Positions 5,526 to 63,173 of a stretch of 64,000 nt of DNA are shown piece after piece. Numbering within the stretch: the first letter of the stretch is position 1; each line of letters opens with the position of its first letter. The DNA comes from Blakeslea trispora (Eukaryota > Mucoromycota > Mucoromycetes > Mucorales > Choanephoraceae), in NCBI GenBank assembly GCA_025331445.1, contig JAIWNE010000044.1, positions 1 through 64,000 on the forward strand. The letters are read 5' to 3'. Made by a program: the position numbers and the translations under genes. The notes beneath the pieces were generated by a model. It saw nothing but the letters and a program-made list of their open reading frames with translations, was not told the origin of the DNA and did no database searches.

Positions 5526-7111
5526 CTATTCAAAAATATCATTGCAGTTTTTGCCCAAGTGACTCAAACTCTTCTTGGTTACTTGTCTTCTGTTTTCAGC
5601 TATGCGGACTGCATCTGCAACGGTTATACCATTCGAAGCTGCATAATCCTTTATGGTCTTCATGATTCTGTTTCTCCTCATGTACAACGTCTTCTGCCCA
5701 TTTCTTGTGTACCATCCCTTTTGGCTGACATTCATGGTCTCAACCGATGGAAGGCCTCCTAGCCCTTCAGTCCACTCTCTATACAACTCTTCCAAAGAGT
5801 GAAGAGTGACACTAAGAGAGAAAGAGCTGGGACTTGCTGAAGGTGTTTGCTGATCCAAGCTACTTTCAATCGTGGCCATGTCTTCTTCGGTTCTTGGTTG
5901 TGAGGAAGGCATATTTCTTACCGCTGTCTGAGGAGTTTCAGATCCTTCTGGCCAAGAGATGTTGATTTGCAGTGGGGCCCTGCCGGTAGAGATGTCGGAC
6001 ATGTTCAACAAAAGGCGGTTCACCAGGTGGACAACTTGCTGATTGGACTGTTGGACACTCTCTTCAATGTTTGTGAGTCTTCGTTCAACTACTGGAATGA
6101 CACGTTGGAGTAGGATGTTCTCAGGATGTTCTTCTTCATGGGCTTTGAGTAGCAGCTCTCTAAAATAAGGATATAGTTAGACTTTTTAGTTGATGCTTTC
6201 ATGTCTCTAGATCAATTGACATACCGTTTGAATTCCAAGTATTCGGGATGACGGAACAAAGGATTTTTCCACAATGAATGTGCTGGATACAGTTGCTGCA
6301 TGAATACAGAATCTTGTAGAAACGTGATTCTTAATGTCATCATAAGTTGAAGAAAGCCTTCTGCGGAAACTGTTTGTCTTGCTGTACCATCATGAAGCTT
6401 TGAGAGCCAGTGACTTGCTTCAGGAAACACCATTGCTTGTAGATTTTCTGAAGGAGTGATGGTGGCGCGGGGGAGAAAGAAGGTACCTCGTTCGGTAAAC
6501 ACAGCCAAGCTACGCATGATGCCATGAGGCAAGTTGGTGAGATAGGCACCATTCAATGAGCTGTTGTTCCATCTTCCCATTCTTCGAATATCTGATTCCT
6601 CAACACCTTGCATATCAGCCATTCGAGCAGCAGCACCTCGACTAACATGCGTTTTCTTTGAAGAAGTGATGTTGCATGCTTTGAATGCTTTATCGATGGC
6701 TGCACAATGACTGTGGTAGGTCCATTGCTCCTTGGGGTCAGCTTTGTGCTTCAAGAGTTGAATGTCAAACCAGTCAGAAGAGTTTTCAAAACGAGGAAAA
6801 GGCTCATTTTCAACATGGAATCTTCCAAAAAAGTAAACACCAAACATCATAAATGGACAGATTTCAACCCGAGCGTTACGAATACATGCCCCAATTTCCA
6901 TTCTTCCGAATTTGTTGGTCTTGCCTTGTCTCATTACCAAAATCAAAGCAGGGCATTTTTGAGAGCCTTCGCCTTCAAGATCGAGAACCTGCAAATCACG
7001 CAATTGGGCTTGGCGAGCAGACTCACCACGAAGGAGACAAAAGTGAGACAAAAGGAACGAAAGAGAGTTGCGCAAATCCTTGATGGTGTCTTGCTGAAAG
7101 TAATAACCAAC
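5526..7111 (-). pseudogene. Crypton tyrosine recombinase, catalytic and GCR1_C part
   Basis: This is the C-terminal two thirds of the gene begun at 395. Reading from 7111, the first exon carries the tyrosine-recombinase core: an arginine in CLLRGESAR, a H-x-x-R block (HVSRGAAAR), GRWNN, and a candidate nucleophilic tyrosine in GAYLTNLP. A 65-nt intron at 6160-6224 (GTATGT to TTTTAG) joins it to a second exon with a coiled segment and a tryptophan-rich GCR1_C-type DNA-binding domain (REWTEGLGG...KGWY...YMRRNRI), ending with a stop at 5526. YR plus GCR1_C is the architecture of fungal Cryptons. The part is open throughout, so the enzyme was probably intact until the LTR insertion and inversion. 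The first five bases (ccaac on plus, gttgg on minus) are the partner target duplication of 992-996. Confidence 0.85.
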
Positions 7112-7998
7112 TGTCGTATTTGGGCATATACAGAAGCCAGAATGACTTATAATCGGAAATTCAATTAATCATCATCAAAGGTTATTTTGACAGATAATGT
7201 CAAAATAACAATAAATCAAATAATGTTCACAAAGTTGGAAAACTAAAATCATTTCAGATATTACCAGAGGTAATCCTGAAATCAAACATCTAACAAGCAT
7301 TGGTAAAAAGCGATGATATGATATATAAAGCGTTCAATGTGCCTAGCTAACACATTGAAAGCATGATCAGATTTATATTCATTGACTCTCTTTTCATCAA
7401 TACTTGAAATGGCTATATGACATGATACATGTGATAGCAGGATGGTTGCATAGGCCTTATAATACCAAGGTAGCAGCATCTAACAAAACAAGCAATGATT
7501 CTAGAGATTTCATTATAAGAAAAGACTAAATCATTACTTGGATAAAGATAGTTCTGAGACATAATTACAAAGGGCTTGTCTATCGTTATCACCTAATCTA
7601 AACTGATCTAAACTGATCTAAACATCCAACGAAACAAGTGAACAAGTATGAAACAGTTATGCCTGATATATTGAAACACTAATCAAGATTAAACATATCT
7701 TGTCGAGCATAATTATTATCTCTCCAAGATATAAATCAAGTAAACAATATATCTCCACCTCATTCAAGGCGGGGGATAAAATCTGGCTACAGCCATCTTT
7801 CCATTAAGGTGACCAGTCATCCTAGTAGGAAAACTGCTCATACAGATAAAATTATAACGGAGTGATTGATTGAAACCGAGATAGAAATAATATATAAACA
7901 CAACATGGACTTGCAGTAGAATTAGTTCCCTCTCTTTCTTTTTAATAAAAAAATCGAGTTCCCTCTCATTGAATCTATTTGAGACTGCAAATATCACA
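7112..7998 (+). repeat. 5' LTR
   Basis: 887 bp with TGT...ACA ends. It differs from the 3' LTR at position 32 (T here, C there) and position 593 (C here, T there), with no other difference noticed by eye. Confidence 0.92.
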
Positions 7999-8007
7999 AT
8001 TTTTTCA

Positions 8008-9561
8008 ATGAAGACCTTCAACAACGATTCTACTGCTTCCGCTAGCAACAACCCCTCTCCTGTTTTGGCCCCTGCTTCTCCCCAAGAAAAGCGCGTGGCT
8101 AGGGAAAACAAGAGACTCTTCCGCGAGTCTGGTTTGGGTGCCTTGGACCTTGACTTTGACAAGGATCAAGACATCGAAATGGACGATGTGTCTTCCTCGG
8201 TGGCTTTGCCTGTTCGCGCTGCCTCTGGTAGTGCTTCCCCTGCTGGTATTCTCATGGCTGGTAATGAAAGTATAACATTTAATCACGCTGAAAACAAAAA
8301 TTTGGCTGATTACCAAAATAACTTGAATTACGAAAAAAGTAATTTCAATGAACAAAATAACTCTGGTTACGAAGAAAGTAACTTAAATGAGCAAATGAAC
8401 AATACCAATATGCAAAGGTTGGTTATTGAAGAAAAACAATCTGTGGCCGACATAGATACGGGCAGATATCAAAATAATATGGAGATGAACTACCCAGTTA
8501 CTCCTAAAATAACTGAAGAAAAATTGGTACAACGGTACCAAAACAAAATTAATTTACTCTTCGAAGCCACGCTTGAGTGTAACAACATTGAGGAACTACA
8601 AAAACTCAATGTACTAATTGAACAACTTGAGAAGTTGAAAAATCTCTTAGTAAACAAAAATAAGAATGACAGTAAGAACGCTGATAATAATTCTAAAACG
8701 ATCAAAAATCAGATCAACAAAAATGAAATACCTATCTTTCAGTTTATTGATGACCCTGCTGATACAAAGACAGACAATCGAACTGCGCATGCAAATGCTG
8801 AAGGATTCATCTCTGCTTTTGAGTTGACGATGAAAATTAACGATATCAACATAGATGTTGATTGGAAAAAATATTTGACCACTTCTTTCCTCTACGGAAG
8901 AAATAATAAGCATATGCGTTGGTATCAAAACCATATCAACGTACTTGATGATCATGTGAAATGGGATCAAGTTAAACAAGCAATCATCGACCGCTTTGGC
9001 GATATAAATGATACAAAGAAAATCCGTAGATATATCAATATCAAACAAGGAAAAAGTGAGACCATCCGGGATTATATCGACAGATACCTGGAAGCTTTCA
9101 ACCGTTTGCCCATTAAGTATAACTATGGTGTCATCCAAACGGCTTCATTTATTGAATCACTTCTACCCGTTACAAAGGAAGAAGTAGAAAAATCATTAAA
9201 GGCGAACTATGAAAGTTCAGGTAATACACATTACCCAGAAAGCCTTGGGAGTTTATTTAAATTCCTTGAAAAACATATTGGAGACATACAAGAAGCATTG
9301 TACCTCTCACTGGCACCAAAGGCTGCTAAAAACAAAGAGCGAGAAGATCGCAAAAGAGATGACCGATCCCATCTGGATCAACAACAACAACAGAATGCCA
9401 AAAGGCATAAAACAATTTACCACAAAGCTTACCAACCTACGGTACCTCTGTGTGGTCACTGTAAAATAGAACCTTTCTCTCCTCGTCACTTGGAGACCTG
9501 CAAGCCATACTTGGCAAAAAAAGCTATGTGGCAACAAAATGGCAGTCAACAAAATAAGTGA
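8008..9561 (+). CDS. Retrotransposon Gag polyprotein
   Basis: This ORF of 517 codons uses the ATG at 8008; an in-frame ATG at 7969 lies inside the LTR and is less likely. The N-terminal 85 or so residues are low-complexity and Ser/Ala/Pro-rich. A long polar Asn/Lys/Glu-rich linker follows, then a gag capsid-like domain around residues 230-440 with the WDQVKQAIIDRFG and YIDRYLEAFNRLP segments usual for Ty3/gypsy Gag. The C-terminus has a Cys/His cluster, C-x2-C-x8-H-x3-C, a stretched variant of the CCHC zinc knuckle (usual spacing C-x2-C-x4-H-x4-C). Gag forms the virus-like particle and packages element RNA in the cytoplasm. The frame is fully open although pol downstream is wrecked. Codon choice shifts from GC-ended to AT-ended near 8265, which may mark a recombination joint. 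Confidence 0.85.
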   Translation: MKTFNNDSTASASNNPSPVLAPASPQEKRVARENKRLFRESGLGALDLDFDKDQDIEMDDVSSSVALPVRAASGSASPAGILMAGNESITFNHAENKNLADYQNNLNYEKSNFNEQNNSGYEESNLNEQMNNTNMQRLVIEEKQSVADIDTGRYQNNMEMNYPVTPKITEEKLVQRYQNKINLLFEATLECNNIEELQKLNVLIEQLEKLKNLLVNKNKNDSKNADNNSKTIKNQINKNEIPIFQFIDDPADTKTDNRTAHANAEGFISAFELTMKINDINIDVDWKKYLTTSFLYGRNNKHMRWYQNHINVLDDHVKWDQVKQAIIDRFGDINDTKKIRRYINIKQGKSETIRDYIDRYLEAFNRLPIKYNYGVIQTASFIESLLPVTKEEVEKSLKANYESSGNTHYPESLGSLFKFLEKHIGDIQEALYLSLAPKAAKNKEREDRKRDDRSHLDQQQQQNAKRHKTIYHKAYQPTVPLCGHCKIEPFSPRHLETCKPYLAKKAMWQQNGSQQNK

Positions 9562-11220: not shown

Positions 11221-12107
11221 TGTCGTATTTGGGCATATACAGAAGCCAGAACGACTTATAATCGGAAATTCAATTAATCATCATCAAAGGTTATTTTGAC
11301 AGATAATGTCAAAATAACAATAAATCAAATAATGTTCACAAAGTTGGAAAACTAAAATCATTTCAGATATTACCAGAGGTAATCCTGAAATCAAACATCT
11401 AACAAGCATTGGTAAAAAGCGATGATATGATATATAAAGCGTTCAATGTGCCTAGCTAACACATTGAAAGCATGATCAGATTTATATTCATTGACTCTCT
11501 TTTCATCAATACTTGAAATGGCTATATGACATGATACATGTGATAGCAGGATGGTTGCATAGGCCTTATAATACCAAGGTAGCAGCATCTAACAAAACAA
11601 GCAATGATTCTAGAGATTTCATTATAAGAAAAGACTAAATCATTACTTGGATAAAGATAGTTCTGAGACATAATTACAAAGGGCTTGTCTATCGTTATCA
11701 CCTAATCTAAACTGATCTAAACTGATCTAAACATCCAACGAAACAAGTGAACAAGTATGAAACAGTTATGCCTGATATATTGAAACACTAATCAAGATTA
11801 AACATATCTTGTTGAGCATAATTATTATCTCTCCAAGATATAAATCAAGTAAACAATATATCTCCACCTCATTCAAGGCGGGGGATAAAATCTGGCTACA
11901 GCCATCTTTCCATTAAGGTGACCAGTCATCCTAGTAGGAAAACTGCTCATACAGATAAAATTATAACGGAGTGATTGATTGAAACCGAGATAGAAATAAT
12001 ATATAAACACAACATGGACTTGCAGTAGAATTAGTTCCCTCTCTTTCTTTTTAATAAAAAAATCGAGTTCCCTCTCATTGAATCTATTTGAGACTGCAAA
12101 TATCACA
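11221..12107 (+). repeat. 3' LTR
   Basis: 887 bp with TGT...ACA ends. It interrupts the helicase gene of Helentron A; the flank at 12108-12112 (caaca, tgttg on the minus strand) pairs with 1884-1888 next to the solo LTR, with one mismatch. Confidence 0.92.
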
Positions 12108-15100
12108 CAACATACAATGCAGATCTAGTAATTCTTCTTTTACCAATATCGTAGACAACTACAGAGTCGTAAGTGCCCCCTTGAGACTTGTGAACAGTCA
12201 TGGCTTCAGCAGGCACAACGGGGAACTGTTTTCTTTGAAGACTTAGAGAGCCATCCTTCTTCTTGCTGATAGTACCGACTGTGGGCTCAATCATAGTCCA
12301 GGTGTCATCACTTATACTTGCAAGTCTTCTGATTCTTTCTTGTCTTCTTCTTAGTTTTAAACCTGCTCTGTTTTCTTCAAACTTGACCCACAATCTCATT
12401 GGTTTTGCTGGTCCGGAATCTTGTTGATTCGAGCTTTCAGCATTGGTTCCGACAGTAGATCTTCTTCCGTAATCTATCTTCATGAGATAGCCTGTTGCCC
12501 CGTTTACAAGGCCATCGCTTGTATCAATTTTCTTGGTCATCATGTACCTAGCACCTATCTTGAGCAGCAATTTCTTGATGAGACCACCATTCTTCAAATT
12601 GCCAAAGTTTTCGCTATCAGCACTTTGGATTAGATGATCAACAGCAGACTGACTCGACATCATGCCAGTAACTCTATCAAAAGCAACAGAAACTGCACCT
12701 TCTGTATTCATAGACATGAGAATGCTGTTATTGGCTTTGTGGACTTCTTCATTGGTCTTAAATAGGCATATACCCCTCATGTTGCTATCGGTGCTTGCAT
12801 CCACAGAAAAGCTGGTAGTATTTTGGGCCTCAGTAGTGCGAGTGCGGTCGAGATGAGGAAGAGGAAGACTAGGTAGATCAATATTGTCATGAGAAGAATT
12901 CGTATCATTTCTGTTTCTTGAAGCATGTGCATTGAAGGCTTGAAGCTCTTCAGTAGTCAGTCTTAGCACGCAATTTCGAATCAAGCAAATATCATCAGAG
13001 GTCATGGATCCTGCAGCCATGTTGTTTAGTGCGATGGCAAAGGATTGATCATCTCTCTGTCTCATTATTTCTGTCAGTCTGAACGTTTGAAATAGGTGCC
13101 ACAGATCTTTGGATTTGGCGTTGCTGGAATAAACGTTCTTGGCTTGTACAGCAGGTAGTTGCAAAAAGTCACCAACACAAATAACAGACACGCCACCAAA
13201 GGGAAGGTCTCTATCAAAAATATGCTTCAATCGTTGATCAACATATGAAAGCATTTTGTCAGATATCATGCTGATTTCATCAATGATGACTACTTTCAGA
13301 TCTTTGAGACCAACAGACATAGAATGATTAACATCAGAGGAAAGTTCGGGGAGACCATGGTTGCCGTGGTTTTGATTTACTGGTAAGTGGAATGCTTGAT
13401 GCACAGTCTGGCCACCAATTACGAATGCTGCCTTGCCTGTCGGAGCGGTTAAAAGAACGGAGGGAGAGAGCGTGTCTCTTTCAGTGTTGCTGTCAAACTC
13501 ACGAGAAAGGGCTTCAAACAACGTCTTGATCAGCATACTCTTACCAACTCCAGCACCACCAGTCACAAAATGATAGAATGGTCCAAATGACTTCCAAGTT
13601 GTATTTGATGACGCTATGTTGAACATTTGTCGAACAGTACGATCCTTGTTGGTACGAACATGGTGAATCGTATGACAAAGATAATCCCGTTGATTGAGGT
13701 TGAGTTTTGTCAATAGGTTTTTAAAATCTTGATTGCTCAATCGTTCGGGCACAGTGAGCTTTTCACAATATGTCCTGTTGCTTGTTGAGCCTGTTCCCAA
13801 ATTCAAATCATTTTCGGCATCTGCTTCTCTATGATAGTTGCCTTCTTCAGAGTCGTCAATGTCAAGAGTATATCTGCTGAAATCATTTTCATTTTCAGAA
13901 TATAACACTCTATGATTAGGTTGCTCATTATCTTCATCTTCATCTTCTTCATTTTCATCTTCCAAAACTGCTAGATATCCATCAAGCGTTTCATCACTAA
14001 TGGTTCTAAACTCTTTTTTTGCCTCCATGATTGCATTTGAGTTTAGCAAGAAAACCTGTTCAGCGTCAACATCAATCAGCTCAGCTTTTTCTTCTTTCCA
14101 TGGTTTGAACAGCATCAAGAGAATACGGAAGTAGTCATTCCTGTCTTTGTCGATATTTCCTTTGAAATACCTAATGACCTTAGATTTTCCTCTTCTTTTG
14201 ATGAAACCTTGTCGGTTTTTCAAGGTAAATATCTTGCCGGCATCAACAGCACCACCTTCTTCTAACACTTCATCAGGGACATTGTCTTCGTTCTCTACTT
14301 CTTCATCAGGCCTGTTTGTTTGTTGTCTTCTTGGATGTTTTTTTGAAAACTCGAAGTATGCAGCAAATTGAGCCAAATTCAAGTGCGAAAGCTCATCCAA
14401 ACAAACAACATAGTGTTCTATTAATCCAGGTTGATACCATTCAGTAGAATCTGCAGGTAAGTCCACCAAGTCCTGACCACTTTTAAGAATACGTGTTCTT
14501 TTATCGAGCCTTGATGTCGGAATGTGTACAGTTACAGTACTCGATTCGGCCATATTGATACCAAGCAAATTGTAGCAGGCTTCCTGGGCAGATATTTCAC
14601 TCGTGTTGTAATAAGTATTTATCAAGGAGCCCAGCATGTTCATGGCTTTGCTTGAAGGATCATTGCGGTGTTTTTGAAAATTTCATCTAAGGCCTTACTG
14701 ATGTTATCACCTTTTGATGAATGACAACATATTCACAACAGGCATACGGGTCTAATATGTATGGATATCCATGTTTGACCGCATAAGACCAAAAACTTTA
14801 GCATTTAGTTGTTGGTAACAATTGCATTAGTGGAACGCTTGATAAAGATTTTGTTCAATTGAGGTTGATACGCAGAGCATTGAGATAGTCGTTTAGGTTG
14901 CGATATTCAACTCAATCAAGAAATCTTCAAATGACATATTTGACTGGGTCAAAGTGGACATGTTGTCATTAAGATACATATTGATTCTTTTGTTCAAAGC
15001 CTTCAACCGGTTCTTTTCTTCAGCAGCAAACTCAAGATCTTCTACAGGTGTCAATAGTCTTGTCTCTTTCATTGGTGGAAATGGTATATTGAATCGGCAA

Positions 15101-17560
15101 ACTTCCTTTCCTCCTCGTTTTCTTATACAGATATGAGTGTGTTTATGAGAAAGTCTACTATCCACCAAAGTTCTCCATGTATTCTCATTGCATTCTTCTA
15201 CATTCTTGGCATGAGGAGTTCCATCCCATTCTCCTTTGCATGTAACAAGCTTATCCACAAAATCGCAAGCTTCCTGCTGATTGCTTTCAGTACCAGTCTT
15301 GTTGTTGAAAACAGGCGCATCCTTCAACCAAATGAGCATATGGATATGTGGAGATCCTTTAAAATAGCACAAGTTAGCCATAAGCATATGTTTAAAGAAC
15401 TTTTCTTTTTGCTTACCACGTTGTTGGAATTCTACTCTATAGTAATATTCCTTGATCTTGTACCCCGAAAAGGACCTGCTTCATGAGACCATGTCTTTTT
15501 CAGGACATGGAATCTATGGTCAAAGTAGCGAGCGCAGATAACTGGATCGCTTTGTATCAATCTGGCTTTTTCTGCATAACTCAATTCGTTTGATTGAATT
15601 TCAGTAATAACATCATTGTCAACCACTTTCTTCAAAATAACCAAGAGCTCAGGCCAAAATGCTTCTGCAGCTGAAACAGTCAAAAAGATAGTTGGTATAC
15701 CTATTTGTGCAATCATAGCCATAACATTTTGCTTCTGTCCTTTCCAATAGCTGCCTGACGAACGAATACCAGTAAAAACCTTGTACGCTTGATCGAGATT
15801 CAACAAAGCATTTACATTTTCCGGATTGGATACATCATCTACTGTAATGGCTCGTTCGCTGTCCTCACCGTTGGCTTTCATTGTTCTTTTTCGAATGATG
15901 ATGTTCAAATTACTTTTCATCTTCAACAGTTGAATCTTGCGATCAAAAAACAAAAGACAATCAGCACGACTTGCAACTCTTCTATCGAAACTACGAGTCA
16001 TTGATTTGACCATGGATTGGTAAGGTACACACGATGTTGTGACCAACTTTTGTCCAAAGAAAATTTTGGGGAAAGCCAAAAAATCACAATCTTGATCCAT
16101 AATAATGGAAAGAGGTGTGTTTCCTTCTGCTGGGGCTATACGGAGAACAGTGTTATTATCAACAAGCAAAGTTTCTTGTACTCCTGCATTGGCCTCACCT
16201 ACTCCATCAACCTGCTCTTCACTTTGAGACCATTATTTTCATTGGTCTCGGCTTGATTGTCTGAGCCTTGTTCATCATCATCTGGACCAAAATCTTCTTC
16301 AAATATGTCACCTAGCTCATCTTCATTGACTTCTACCGATTCGTTTGAACCGTCTTGACGTAGATTGAGAGTAGTCCATTCTTCTTCATCAACAACATCG
16401 ACATCATGAGCAACGTAGAGAGGAGTTCCTATAAGTAGCGAACTGCTGTCCAAACATAGTCAGGCTTGATAACTCCTTGCATGTAGTTCTTAAGGTAAGT
16501 CATCTTTCTTGCTAAGTGAACATGTACAGTCGAAGTATCGTCAAGGTTTCTTGGTAAAGAAGATTTAGAGGTATCAACGTTGACAGGTACATTGACTATG
16601 GCACCTTTACTTCTGAACTGACCATGCAGACCTTTATGGGTCCACAAAGATTGGAAGATATGGCGTGGTGCTACCAGTCTTTCTTCGAGTCTGCTGAGCC
16701 TGTTGACGCATTCTACTTTCTCGGGAAAATGAAGGCCATGAGACAAAGCAATAGTTGGCAGCTTTGTTTTTTTGAGTGATGCTCTACAAGTCATACAAGA
16801 TCGATATTTTGCATCATCTTCATCATTGCCTTCTCTTGCAACCATATTGTGTCCTTGGAATACATTGTGGTGGAGGCCCCAAAAAGCTCCAAGAACAATC
16901 TCCTCATCACAACCCCAACTAATCAACTGGTTCTTGCTTACTAAACAAGTGCTCCTCTTGAAGAAAAGATTTCCGCAGCAAAAGCAAATGATGGTAGGGC
17001 CAAGACGAATTGAGTCTTCATATTCATCAGTAACAGCTTGCCATTCTAAGTTGATCTGGAATACGATGCTGTCTGTCAAAACGAATGTCTTTTTTTTTTT
17101 AAGAAAAACTACTTTACCTCGGGTTCCAAAGGTGTTTGTCGTCTTTGACGGTACTCTCTTTGGTATTCAGTATATTCTTCAATATGAGCAGCTCTATACT
17201 GTCTAGCATCTTCAGTGTGCGCAGCTCTATACTGTCTAGCATCTTCAGTGTGCGCAGCTCTATACTGTCTAGCTTCTTCGGTATGCTCAGCTCTATACTG
17301 TCTGGCTTCTTCACTATGCTCGGCTCTATATCTTCTTCGATACGACCTTCCTTCTTCGGAATTGTTTCGGTCTCTCTGCCGCTTTCTAATTGATTCAGAG
17401 TTGTTTGCAACGTAGGATCATTGATTCTCTCTTCTTCTTCTTCTTGCCCTTTCATTTTCCACATTGGGAAGTCTAAACCGACTTGTTTGGCCTGAGTATG
17501 TGATGGTCGAATTTGTTGCATCTCGAGGTACATCTTGAATGGGTGAACTCATGTCATCAC
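12108..17560 (-). pseudogene. Helentron A Rep-helicase, inactivated
   Basis: The gene is the homologue of copy B's 1930-codon ORF. Compared with B, single bases are missing near 16433, 16229, 15469 and 14803, each shifting the frame, and at about 14710-14731 a 6-bp stretch is replaced by 20 bp. That last change falls on the codons of the Y-x3-Y catalytic tyrosine motif of Rep. The Pif1-type helicase portion (12108-14643) is still open, with Walker A GGAGVGKS and Walker B DEISM, and ends at the LTR. The HUH motif (HIH) remains in a separate open piece at 14893-15387. The one-base losses could be real decay or sequencing error, but the tyrosine-motif change and the LTR break cannot be. Confidence 0.88.
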
Positions 17561-44829: not shown

Positions 44830-46940
44830 AGATTTTGCTGATACCGTTCAATCGTTTTTCTTCGATATGAACGACACAGCAGACAAAGCACAAAGACAAA
44901 TTTTTATCGCATTTACAGCGGTACGAAGTCCGACTCTTACACTTCTTGCAGAGCATGCGTCTCTTTTCACCTATTGACACAGGGTGGTGAGGTACATTCT
45001 AACCCCCTGGAACCATTGAACGAGTTGCAACGGGCTAGCTGTGATTTCTAGAGGGTCCCTCTTCACCCTGTATCAAATGTGACAGCAGAGACCCATAAAG
45101 TTTCCACCGAAACTCACCATGCTTCATCCCCTTTCCTTTCTCGGAAAAGGCGGTGTATGCCGAAAAGGTGTTTGCCTCAGCAACACCAAGAAAGAAAGCC
45201 AAGCAACGAACCATGGACCGGTCACTCTTCATCGCATCATGGAAAGAGGCCATGCAATCTCTCCCGTTGTTGGCATTGTCAACGGCCCCTATTTAAATTT
45301 TTAGAATTTTATCATCAAACAATCACTTTTTTATATACCTTTGTTTGCTGAGTATTCATCAAACACGAGTGGTCTGTTGCATGACTTCACCTGGCCGTCT
45401 TTCATTCTTCGTGTGATTTGGCTGCCATCCTTGGTGAGACCACAGCTGGCGACCAAGGCCCTGGGCTTGATATCTTTGTAGGCGCATACAAAGATATCAC
45501 CTTGTCTAGCCCTTTTGCTGACCTTGGCACCAAAGTCATCACCAAGAGCAGCAACCAAATCATCCCGGGGCATCCCGCGAGGCCAGTACATTCTCTTCTT
45601 GACCTGCATTATAGAATACAGGCCTTCTTCTAACAATCCTCTTGCCATAGCTGGCGAACCAAAAAGAGAATCACCAACTATGGTTCTACCAGAATAAAAC
45701 CAAGGCTCAGTAAGGCGCAAGACCGTCGCTATAGTTTTCAGAGTACCTTGTGACTCAAATCGTCTGACGGTCTTGTCGCCAACGGGATCCAATCTTAGAA
45801 TACAGAAAGTCTCACAATCGGCTAAGGTTTAGTACTCTTGACCGATTGAGTGGGGCTTTCTTGGGATCTTCACCACGTTAGGCATGCCTTTACCGAGCCA
45901 CTGGTTCATGCTTTCATCTACGCACAAGTATTTTCCTGGCACCATTGCTTGGACTAAATTGTCGTTGTATGCAGCGATGAATCGACGAAGCTGATACAAC
46001 GAATCCTCTTTTTGGCTACAACAATCACATTAAGTACTTTTGCAATTAAACAAAGCATTTGACTTACTTTGCAATGTTAGGAATCTCGAACATAAACATA
46101 GAGGTCAAAATTCTGAATCTCTCAATGGTCATGAAATTAGCGAAGGTAAAGTTGAAACCAAACGGACTTTGACTCTTCCCCCAAAACAATTCCAAATCGG
46201 CATTTGAGAACATTGTCATGATCAGACACATCGTGACCCAGAGCAAGATTTCGTTCCAGTTTATCTCCGCCCAACCTGGATAAGCACTTCTTGCATTGAT
46301 GTTGATCTTGTCGATCACATCAAGAAAGTGCTCTTGGGGCAAGAAGCGCAAAAAGTAATCGGCGGGCGAAGCGACTCGGCAGTTCTTTATGTTTATTCTG
46401 CTCTTTCTAACGAAAGCAGATCCACTTGTTGCTCTTGCGCCTAAGACAACTTCCTGGTCAACCCATTCGTTGTTGACGTTGATAGTTTTGTTTGAAGAAA
46501 CTTCTTCTTCGCTTGATGATGAGCTGCTTTCTGAAGAAGCCTCATCATTTAAGGCTGCAGCATCGGTGGTCACAGCAGCTTGTCTGCTGAATTCAGCAGC
46601 AACCTGAGCTTCAACAGGTGTCTTTTCAACAAGCCTGGTGGAGATACATGCTGCACTTAACTGAATTTGGCGGCCATTGAGTGCATTAAACTCAATGCCG
46701 TAAAAACCTTGTTACCTTCTTCAACACGGTTACAAATGGTTCCAAAAAGACGAGAACCTGGTTGTCTGAAATCGTGAGTTGCTTCCAACAATCTGGCAAC
46801 TTCAGTTCCTACTAAGTAGCGACCATTGACGGATACTCTTTGGTTTAATGCAGACGTTGATTTTTCTTTTTTGAAAACCGCGGTTTCACATACTTCAGGT
46901 ACGACAGAATTTTGTTCGCAAAGCACTTCTTCTCTTATTT
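44830..46940 (-). pseudogene. piggyBac-type transposase, inactivated
   Basis: The DDE_Tnp_1_7 domain is evident on the minus strand. It includes DYFLRFLPQEHF and INWNEILLWVTMCLIM (46.2-46.4 kb), KYLCVDESMNQWLGKGMP with a catalytic-type aspartate (45.95 kb), TIVGDSLFGSPAMARGLLEEG (45.65 kb), and AVDNANNGRDCMASFHDA after a 50-nt intron at 45289-45338. The cysteine-rich C-terminal finger follows (CKKCKSRTSYRCKCDKNLSL, near 44.9 kb). A second intron lies between 46065 and about 46015. Lesions seen: TAA near 45830, two in-frame TAGs near 45000-45040, and a frameshift near 46690. PiggyBac inserts at TTAA with precise excision. Its own TIRs were not identified, and its 5' end abuts a displaced host-gene fragment at 46946. 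Not functional as it stands. Confidence 0.82.
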
Positions 46941-59143: not shown

Positions 59144-61661
59144 TTCGAATTTATTTGTTCAATATCAAGAAAAAAAAAGAGAAAGGGGGAAATCAACCAA
59201 AACAAAAATTAAAACTCAATAAATCACATTTTTAATTTTCTCGATCGAGTTCAAAAGCTAAACTAGCGGAGAGAGCGTCTTTGCATGACTTTTATTGTTT
59301 ACAGTTGTGAATCCCATATGAAAGAATGGGCATGAATACTAAAGTTATGCTCACTCGGGTAGAGAAGCAGGAATCCATCGTGCTCAACAGTGTACAGAAT
59401 GGGAGGATTACCTAAACAAAACGCTTATTCATTGCTAGAAAGCTTGTTTACTCTAAGCAATCAATTGAAACCAAAAAAAATAGACAGTATGAAATACATT
59501 AGAGGCAGAGTATAAACATACAAAAGTCATTTCAAGTATGTATGACAGTCTATTTTCAGACCTGTTATCAATACAGACTCAAGCAAATGTTCTCTCAATG
59601 ATGAATTTAAGAGAGTGAGTGAAATAAATCTGATGTTGTCTTGTACTACTTTTTTGAATAATGCTGAGGAGAACATCAATACCTTCATTGCATTTTTAAT
59701 AAATCAGTTGGTTGTTCTTGATACTGTCTTTTTCTTCTTCTAAAGAAAAGAAAAAAAAAACGCTTGAAATCCAAAGTAAACTACACATTATATCTAAGCA
59801 ACTATATAAACTCATTTACAAACAAAACCTCTACAGCAAGTATGATCAGCATGAGAAAGAAAAGATGGGCTGTCTTGTAGAATAATTACATGTCTTTTCC
59901 CTTCCTTTCTTAGTTTTTCTGGCATTGGTGCATTACTTGCTTAGTAGCTTAATTGACAAGATAACCAAAAAAAAAAAAGAAAGCACACTATGCTAAGAAT
60001 GGCCAGGTGAGATATTAGTCTGAGCTTGGAATTGACGAAGAGTGCTTTAAATATAAATAAAAAAATAGATTGTTGATGCTTGAGACAATGAAAGAAAAAA
60101 GGGGGAGGAGTGGCTTTTTTTTTATTCATGTCTTTCTAACATCAGGAACGTATTGAAACCAACCCGTATCGTTTGATCTGACGCGTATGTCTCTTTTTGT
60201 TGTCAAAGACTAATTTTTAAAAAAAAAGGTTATCTTTGTTCTTGACCATCCTAAAAGAGGAAATGACGTGCTACTCTAATTAAATTAAAAAATGATTTTT
60301 ATGGCAAAACGAGTAACAAGCTGTCAATACCTTGGAAACAAAAGATTAAGAAAATAAATAAAACATGTTTCTTTTTTAGGGGGAATCCACTGCTGTTTCT
60401 CAACACTATTAGCAATAGAAAAAAAGAAGAAGGGGAGTTGGGGAAGCCTATGATCTTTCTTTATTTCTACCAGATTTGTTCTTTAAGTTTTACAGCTATT
60501 TAGTATTGGTATTTCAGTCGCCTTGATTGGTTTTCAAATAGACAAGTAACCTCTCGCTAATCTACATCTTGCCCTATTTATCCTATTGGTTCATTCGAAT
60601 ACTTTCCTACCCCCTCCTTTTCCTTCTTTTTTTAAAAAAAATATAGATTATATTCATTAAAATGCACCTTTTTTTTTTTGGGGGGGAAAGGAGGGAATCA
60701 GTCTTTACTTAATTTGTACTTATCCTTGTAAAAAAAAAAAATTTTTTTTTTCTAAAGCACCTATAGCTTGTATGGTACTTCTTTTTTCTTGAGAGATCGA
60801 AATAAACTTATCCGCTTGTTGAGCTTAAGGGTAAAGACTCGACAAAGAGTGGAATGTTAAGCGTATAAAATGAACTTGATTGAGATAAATCAAACATCCA
60901 ATTGTATCATTTCATTTGTCAGTCCCTGAACATGGTTGATAAGTCTGAAACAACTTTCAAAAGTTACTTATTGAAGGATAGATTGTTTTCTGAACCAATC
61001 AAAACGAAAGAGATAATCCAGCTCGTTAGATAAATGTAAAACTAAGAAACCTAATCGTTTTGTTTCTGCGCACTATGAAAAATACAGTGTTGTTGTTGTT
61101 GAGCTGTTCATAATAAAAAAGAAGAGGCTGAGTTGCTGTCTTGTTCTCATTTCATAGCTAAAAAAGGGGGAGAACTTTTCTAAACAAATAAAGCGTTTTT
61201 GTATCGTGTTTTATCAATAAAGAAAAGTTGAAGCGATCTTTTGTTTAATAAAAGAAAGGACTGGCTGTTTATTGAAATAAGAAAAAATAGTTATTCCATG
61301 GTTGCCTTGAGTGAAGATCGAAAAAAAAGGGAAAAAGAAAAAAAAAAAAAAAGAAGAAGAAAAAGAGCTCTAAAGTCTGTTTGAGATTCGATTTAAATAC
61401 TGTTTCACTTGAAATGTCATAAAAAAAAATTTTTTTTTTCTTGCAACATCTATGTAAGCGATAGATAAAGATGGTGATTGCTCATCTGTTTTTTTTTTGA
61501 TAGATTCTGTTGGTTCCCTTACTCGCTTATCTTTAATTTTGTACTACCTCAAGCGGAGGCATAATTTGGACAATTATGGTTTTATGACACATAGTGAATA
61601 AAATAGACCAAACAAGTATCTATTATCAGTCAGAGCCAGTCACACACTGATCAAATAAACC
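59144..61661. other. Intergenic region upstream of the CPS small-subunit gene
   Basis: 2.5 kb rich in homopolymer A, T and G runs. No gene, RNA or transposon end is recognised. Confidence 0.4.
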
Positions 61662-61669
61662 TATATAAT
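61662..61669 (+). promoter_or_regulatory. TATA box of the CPS small-subunit gene
   Basis: TATATAAT followed by a long CT-rich tract (61670-61730), the usual layout of strongly expressed fungal promoters. It predicts transcription starts near 61700 and a leader that includes the uORF at 61824. Confidence 0.6.
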
Positions 61670-61823
61670 CATTCTTCTCCACATCTTCATTCTTTCTTTC
61701 TCCTTCTATCTCTCTCTCTTCTTCTTTTAAGAATTGAATACTTTTTAAAGTTCAAGACCTTTCAATCAATCAACTAAAGAAGAAGGGTAATTAGTTTTAA
61801 ATCGTTTTTTATAACGTAAATTT

Positions 61824-61966
61824 ATGTATATTCACGCCTACGAAAAGTGCTCTGCCGATTATATTTGCGATCAAAGTAAATCATTGGAACTCCTCTAATT
61901 CTATCAATCATATCTTAACATCCTTTGCTTTCATTTCTAGTCTGGAAATCCTCTGATAACCTCTAA
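61824..61966 (+). CDS. Upstream ORF: arginine attenuator peptide homologue, split by an intron
   Basis: ATG at 61824 opens a frame that runs to a GTAAAT donor at 61876. A branch-like CTTAAC (61914-61919), a pyrimidine tract and TAG end the 65-nt intron at 61940. The joined ORF stops with TAA at 61964-61966 and encodes 25 residues. Residues 9-22 read CSADYICDQIWKSS, very close to yeast Cpa1 uORF (core DYISDHIWK) and Neurospora arg-2 AAP (core DYLSDHLW). Ser10, Asp12, Tyr13, Asp16 and Trp19 sit at the same positions as in the Neurospora peptide. AAP stalls the ribosome at its own stop codon when arginine is high, cutting translation of the main ORF 16 nt downstream. Without splicing the frame ends at 61898 after 24 codons and lacks the tryptophan. 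Confidence 0.85.
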
Positions 61967-61982
61967 ATTATTACTCAACAAA

Positions 61983-63173
61983 ATGTCTCCTATTACTGCT
62001 ACTCCTGCCTCTCTCAAGTTGAAGACTGGTCAAATCTTCCATGGTACCTCTTTTGGTGCTCCCGTCTCTACATTTGGTGAAGCTGTCTTCACTACCTCTC
62101 TTGTCGGTTATCCCGAATCCATGACCGATCCTTCCTACACTGGTCAAATCCTAGTCTTCACTCAACCCTTGATCGGTAACTATGGTGTTCCCGGCCAAGT
62201 AAAAGATGAATTTGGTCTTCTCAAGTACTTTGAGTCCGATGCCATTCAAGTCCAAGGTATCATTGTCAACGATTACGCTACTGAATACTCTCACTGGACT
62301 GCTGTTGAATCCTTGGGTGAATGGTGTGCTCGCTACAACGTCCCTGCCATCAGCGGTGTTGACACCCGTGCTTTGACCCAACTCTTGCGTGACCAAGGCT
62401 CCACTTTGGCTCAAGTTTGTATTGGTGAAGAATCATCCGTTGACAACATCAGCACATTGGAATTCCCCAACCCCAACAATGAACATCTAGTTGCCAAGGT
62501 CTCTACCAAGGTCCCTGTTACTTACAACCCCAAGGGTGATCTCAAGATTGCTGTTATTGATTGTGGTGTCAAACAAAACATCCTCCGTTGCCTTGCTAGT
62601 CGTGGTGCTAGTGTTACCGTCTTGCCTTATAACTTTAACTTCAATGCTGTTGCTGATCAGTTTGATGGTTTCTTTATCTCTAACGGTCCCGGTTCTCCTA
62701 CTGTTTGTGCCGAGACTATCAAGCACTTGAAGACAGCTATTGATCAATTAAACAAGCCTATTTTTGGTATCTGTATGGGTAACCTCTTGCTCGGTATGGC
62801 TGCTGGTCTTGAAGTTTACAAGTTGCCTTTTGGTAACCGTGGTCACAACCAACCTGCCTTAAACGTCGATACCGGTCTTTGTTACATCACCTCTCAAAAC
62901 CACGGTTATGCCTTGAACGATCAAAGTATGCCCAAACACTGGAAGCGTTTGTTTGTCAATGCCAACGATGGTTCTAACGAAGGCATCCAACATGAAAGTA
63001 AGCCCATTTTCTCAGTCCAATTCCATCCTGAAGCTAAGGGCGGACCTCAAGACACTTATTACTTGTTTGAAGAATTCTTGAAGCATGTCCGTGCTCAAAA
63101 GATCGAAACCGAAGGATTCCATGCTTCTATTAGCAATGTTAAGCAACAATCTACTGTTTCTGCTTTTGCCTAA
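61983..63173 (+). CDS. CPA1: Carbamoyl-phosphate synthetase, arginine-specific small (glutaminase) subunit
   Basis: Single-exon ORF of 396 codons. The N-terminal CPSase small-chain domain begins with LKLKTGQIFHG and FGEAVFTTSLVGYPESMTDPSYTGQ. The C-terminal class-I glutamine amidotransferase domain has VIDCGVKQNILR, FISNGPGSP, the nucleophile elbow GICMGN and the His/Glu pair in FSVQFHPEA. The subunit releases ammonia from glutamine for the large synthetase subunit. It ends after the amidotransferase domain, so it is not the fused pyrimidine enzyme. The leader uORF resembling AAP supports the arginine pathway. The elbow reads G-N-L where bacterial and animal enzymes have G-H-Q. No mitochondrial presequence is evident. 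Codons are strongly C-ended, suggesting high expression. Confidence 0.9.
   Translation: MSPITATPASLKLKTGQIFHGTSFGAPVSTFGEAVFTTSLVGYPESMTDPSYTGQILVFTQPLIGNYGVPGQVKDEFGLLKYFESDAIQVQGIIVNDYATEYSHWTAVESLGEWCARYNVPAISGVDTRALTQLLRDQGSTLAQVCIGEESSVDNISTLEFPNPNNEHLVAKVSTKVPVTYNPKGDLKIAVIDCGVKQNILRCLASRGASVTVLPYNFNFNAVADQFDGFFISNGPGSPTVCAETIKHLKTAIDQLNKPIFGICMGNLLLGMAAGLEVYKLPFGNRGHNQPALNVDTGLCYITSQNHGYALNDQSMPKHWKRLFVNANDGSNEGIQHESKPIFSVQFHPEAKGGPQDTYYLFEEFLKHVRAQKIETEGFHASISNVKQQSTVSAFA

Follow-up and report, generated by a model that had tools for sequence, protein, structure and literature searches.

The leader of CPA1 in the Mucorales fungus Blakeslea trispora very probably contains a genuine arginine attenuator peptide (AAP) uORF, split by a constitutive spliceosomal intron and acting by arginine-dependent ribosome stalling at the uORF stop. 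The window, that is, the whole stretch of 64,000 nucleotides analysed, is C225:1-64000 of a 37.2-Mb genome assembled in 285 contigs. The sequence itself shows the reading frame, its AAP match, the leader layout and how good the intron is. The AAP reading follows from the exact register of D12, Y13, D16 and W19 with the AAPs of N. crassa and yeast, the chance controls, the choice of the intron without regard to the peptide, and the position before CPA1, the gene that AAPs control. It also follows from the -3 positions of the two start codons, which are as leaky scanning needs, and from the Trp19-to-stop distance, while the deficit of ATGs in the leader adds weak support. Counting against it, the residues beyond the core are mostly unshared, those at positions 15 and 17 differ, a phmmer search is silent, and there is no consensus Gcn4/CPC1 site.

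The CPA1 gene, encoding the arginine-type carbamoyl-phosphate synthase small subunit (396 aa), is a single exon at 61983..63173 on the forward strand, as are the leader features described below, and matches PF00988 at 1.5e-45. The closest proteins among the matches listed are those of Choanephora cucurbitarum (95%), which bears the name arginine-specific small chain, and Gilbertella persicaria (91%). Merged gene models were rejected, as the pattern [DE]Y..D..W occurs in none of the 120 CPA1 proteins listed. This is the only stand-alone PF00988 gene found in the genome. The PF00988 genes on contigs C209 and C220 also have the large-subunit domain PF02787 within about 3 kb and look like CAD-type pyrimidine genes. 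These two share 82% and 76% identity across their two long exons and 61% across the first, and possibly arose by duplication.

Upstream of CPA1, a TATA-like element TATATAAT at 61662..61669 is the presumed core promoter, and a CT-rich tract at 61690..61728 is the presumed start-site region; the leader was taken as 61690–61982, from this putative transcription start. No consensus Gcn4/CPC1 sites (TGACTC, TGASTCA) were found in 60600–62000. The sole ATG within 61601–61982, at 61824, starts the uORF; one ATG in the leader versus 3.5 expected from the base composition is a weak deficit. The uORF (61824–61966) is separated from the CPA1 start at 61983 by a 16-nt spacer (61967..61982). By the -3 rule alone, the context of the uAUG is poor (T), and the CPA1 AUG has A at this position.

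Exon 1 of the uORF (61824..61875) encodes MYIHAYEKCSADYICDQ plus one base, and exon 2 (61941..61966) finishes Ile18 and continues with W19 K20 S S D N L up to the stop TAA at 61964–61966. When 61876–61940 is spliced out in silico, the frame has 25 codons, MYIHAYEKCSADYICDQIWKSSDNL, with the predicted core DYICDQIWK. Without splicing, the same frame has 24 codons, MYIHAYEKCSADYICDQSKSLELL, and is ended by an intronic TAA at 61896–61898. The original prediction had all these coordinates, lengths and residues right, including the tryptophan adjoining the splice junction. Its claim that the match appears only after splicing holds for I18-W19-K20, and the full D12/Y13/D16/W19 core indeed requires the spliced reading, but D12, Y13 and D16 are already coded by exon 1 by itself. 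The core score, defined as the BLOSUM62 sum over nine positions against the yeast or N. crassa AAP core, is 17 for the unspliced and 42 for the spliced 61824 frame. The unspliced frame, with this score and without Trp19, was rejected as a functional peptide.

The predicted intron at 61876..61940 is 65 nt long and in phase 1 (A / GTAAAT ... TTTCTAG / T), with a branch-point-like TTAAC at 61915..61919 whose A lies 22 nt upstream of the 3' splice site. Intron scores, summing donor, acceptor and length terms with no branch-point term, were calibrated on 109 distinct introns of the same genome. These came from 31 of 35 actin and Ras-family loci by spliced alignment of references, in which every intron cost the same and GT/AG was the sole requirement; some loci overlap, and repeats were counted once. 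The set leaves out tubulin loci and the window introns judged by eye, and a few of its members have odd donors, possibly due to alignment errors. The calibration introns are 49–149 nt long (median 63 nt), with GTAA donors in 87 of 109, TAG acceptors in 82 and YTRAY in 66. Among the 28 GT-AG pairs of 41–200 nt in the leader, 61876–61940 ranks first (14.3, the next being 10.8); its score is at the 71st percentile of those that the 109 introns reach in leave-one-out scoring. A choice that ignores the peptide falls on this very intron. Donors having an equally high-scoring partner number 16 and 23 per 64-kb strand, real introns counted, hence about 0.1 would be expected in a leader of such length. 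Given the rank, the percentile, the rarity of such pairs and the TTAAC element, splicing of 61876–61940 is well predicted from sequence, and the description of it as a well-formed 65-nt intron agrees with its typical score.

It is possible, though unlikely, that the AAP is real and its splicing is regulated, so that intron retention or the use of donors further upstream yields an arginine-insensitive CPA1 mRNA. If the intron is retained, the frame stops at 61898 with no Trp19 and no new ATG, hence retention would alter the peptide, as originally suggested. Two candidate alternative donors, GTAAAT at 61816..61817 and GTAATT at 61787..61788, would, joined to the acceptor at 61940, remove the uAUG, so that the leader would have none. 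In addition, GTAAAT, the donor of the uORF intron, is rarer among the calibration introns than GTAAGT (6/109 vs 33/109). On the other hand, the score of the intron exceeds the median for real introns, and the alternatives lie clearly lower: the pair score of donor 61816 (10.2) is close to the 25th percentile for real introns, and that of donor 61787 (8.4) is near or below it. The second control layer by retention proposed earlier is thus unsupported, the intron scoring as an ordinary, well-formed one, and a splice-level control of CPA1 is a conjecture. The broader form of this idea, that in Mucorales splicing decides whether the CPA1 mRNA senses arginine, as a second control on a peptide switch predating the Dikarya–Mucoromycota split, is slightly less likely still. 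Were it true, a single intron would complete the attenuator, retention would leave a mute uORF, and donors 61816 and 61787 would leave no uORF at all.

With the intron constitutively spliced, as we prefer, we infer the following course of events, from the transcription start and splicing to translation, stalling and its dependence on arginine. Part of the scanning ribosomes would initiate at the weak-context uAUG and make the 25-residue peptide. At high arginine, this peptide, still nascent within the exit tunnel, would arrest the ribosome while the UAA at 61964 occupies the A site, and the stalled ribosome would bar scanning to the CPA1 AUG 16 nt downstream; given this spacer, it would also sit near the main AUG. 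When arginine is scarce, termination at the uORF would be normal, and other ribosomes would leak past the uAUG to the CPA1 AUG in its stronger context. The stall at the UAA is modelled on what PMC7969011 describes for N. crassa and yeast, and in that paper leaky scanning is considered the basis of AAP control.

The peptide was compared with two references. The N. crassa AAP sequence is borne out by PDB 2XL1, and for yeast we used the CPA1 leader peptide (YOR302W), which we take to have 25 residues and the core DYISDHIWK. The core score of the spliced peptide is 42 against the yeast core and 35 against N. crassa alone. In the alignment to 2XL1, D12, Y13, D16 and W19 occupy the N. crassa register, and the stop follows six residues past W19, versus five in 2XL1. 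The ungapped Neurospora register gives 6 of 24 identical positions (M1, S10, D12, Y13, D16, W19). The TCQ-D13-YI stretch of the yeast peptide is supported by a mutagenic primer printed in PMC7969011, a paper which also reports that the D13N change abolishes the arginine response.

A descendant of the AAP that no longer senses arginine, or that acts as a constitutive repressor, would be compatible with C15 and Q17, which replace the S and H of both references, and with the unrelated N-terminal half. We consider this improbable, since the three-sequence alignment has four invariant positions besides Met1 and the window peptide retains all of them, among them the Asp at which an Asn substitution abolishes the response in yeast (D13N, PMC7969011).

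Still less probable is a chance match, that is, an ordinary uORF and a 5'-leader intron whose joined codons resemble the AAP core by accident. The peptide is short, its similarity is mainly in the core, and phmmer with the 25-mer as a single query did not recover 2XL1. A profile did match 2XL1, but it contained the N. crassa sequence itself, so this match confirms only the N. crassa reference and does not test the peptide in the window. However, in dinucleotide shuffles of the presumed 293-nt leader (61690–61982), with all ATG uORFs searched and any single GT-AG intron of 45–150 nt permitted, none of 43,713 shuffled leaders reached 42. The maximum was 30 with either reference, hence the N. crassa score of 35 alone likewise lies outside the shuffles. 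When such peptides are enumerated over the two strands of the window, 42,741 in all, the score of 42 ranks first, and the best peptide not built on the 61824 uORF scores 30. The register and the stop distance are both correct as well.

Genome-wide patterns point the same way. The split motif, with a GTA donor, an HAG acceptor, the same phase as here and a gap of 35–65 nt, has a single match in 37.2 Mb, the uORF in the CPA1 leader, and the reversed controls have none; the one match fronts the one expected gene. The contiguous motif D-Y-h-x-D-x-h-W also has one match, and its reversed-pattern control three; this match, on contig C279, runs antisense to a 110-aa ORF and was rejected as a second AAP. 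A genome search with the CPA1 leader found no second copy elsewhere. On the shuffles, the window enumeration and the genome patterns the chance match was rejected, in accordance with the original judgement that chance is unlikely.

As for the origin of the gene, 120 of the 7,997 protein matches scored are listed, and all named sources among them, many entries carrying no name, read as non-Dikarya fungi, if we place the names in fungal groups correctly. Identity among the matches listed declines from Mucorales to Umbelopsis, then to Glomeromycotina and Mortierella, and then to Kickxellales-type names. Hence there is no hint that CPA1 with its leader was acquired from Dikarya by gene transfer, in which case the AAP would not be ancestral; no point in favour of this most improbable scenario was found. 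The presence of the AAP in Mucorales together with the non-Dikarya CPA1 matches suggests, from one genome, an origin before the Dikarya–Mucoromycota split, and also that the AAP switch predates the hosts in which it is best studied. To date the system to early fungi, as had been proposed, is an overreach: a single genome reaches at most the common ancestor of Dikarya and Mucoromycota. What stands of the original reading is an intron-split AAP-like uORF before a mucoromycotan CPA1, without the dating and without the retention-based control layer.

The AAP in the window widens the range of a known kind. The AAP was described as best known from ascomycetes, which is true but incomplete, since the CPA1 AAP uORF of the basidiomycete Cryptococcus has been verified to repress, according to PMC7049704. 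With AAPs already in Ascomycota and Cryptococcus, the new ground is outside Dikarya. Among the papers listed in the literature search we recognised no report on an AAP in Mucoromycota or on an intron-split AAP uORF. The novelty of the split architecture depends on Hood, Spevak and Sachs 2007 (Fungal Genet Biol 44:93-104), the likeliest prior art, which lay outside the search. If the AAP reading is true, a well-studied metabolite-sensing nascent peptide is now placed outside Dikarya, and searches for contiguous ORFs would miss an AAP whose core is joined by splicing alone. The question of whether other Mucoromycota and deeper fungi have intron-split AAPs becomes testable, and the answer bears on whether the Toxoplasma ApiAT1 uORF arose by convergence, the view of its authors (PMC8370653).

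Among the proteins listed, a presequence-like N-terminus (RGFAT/RGLATV) is present in the CPA1 of Phycomyces, Cunninghamella, Umbelopsis, Mortierella and Glomeromycotina. The CPA1 proteins of Choanephora, Gilbertella, Rhizopus and Mycotypha have no such N-terminus (about 20–70 residues), and likewise those of Zychaea, Fennellomyces, Phascolomyces and Dichotomocladium; the N-terminus in Apophysomyces is intermediate (8 and 21), and a further listed protein, P0065, is likewise without it. From these sequences, mitochondrial targeting of CPA1 seems to have been lost within Mucorales, a presumed loss that the yeast CPA1 enzyme parallels. A stand-alone CPA2-like large subunit (C269:8500-15500, reverse strand) starts with MSATTQSFGLSAPPTTSREG and has no obvious presequence, which fits a cytosolic enzyme. 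Its leader contains a 26-codon ORF, MHIAFNLITSGLLAFDKTYIDNILIK, which ends 2 nt before the main ATG and was rejected as a second AAP (best core score 12).

Elsewhere in the window, mobile-element-like ORFs are found at 5529-7168, 7891-9558, 12106-17166 and 45334-46711. Their domains are GCR1_C with NDC10_II, which we assume to be linked to mobile elements, Retrotrans_gag/Ty3_capsid and pieces of a DDE_Tnp_1_7 transposase, and they also include a PIF1-like helicase with Helitron_like_N and DUF6570.

Among known attenuators, the AAP of N. crassa arg-2 is similarly a uORF of 24–25 codons before the small subunit gene, with D12/Y13/D16/W19 in register. Unlike it, the uORF described here is split by an intron past the first base of codon 18, the N-terminal residues are largely unrelated, and the host belongs to Mucorales. 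Moreover, the N. crassa enzyme is mitochondrial, and the CPA1 in the window has no presequence-like N-terminus. The S. cerevisiae CPA1 leader peptide (YOR302W) is closest in the core, DYISDHIWK versus DYICDQIWK, and both peptides have 25 residues, but the yeast uORF is one contiguous frame. The Cryptococcus CPA1 uORF (CND01050) resembles ours by description, being an AAP uORF before CPA1, in a host from Basidiomycota. PMC7049704 describes it as a conserved AAP uORF that represses in the N. crassa cell-free system; natively it is strongly occupied by ribosomes, and the main ORF is repressed. Finally, the Toxoplasma gondii ApiAT1 uORF is AAP-like and arginine-dependent and requires Asp19, and its authors suggest convergence (PMC8370653); it controls an arginine transporter, whereas the uORF described here precedes CPA1.
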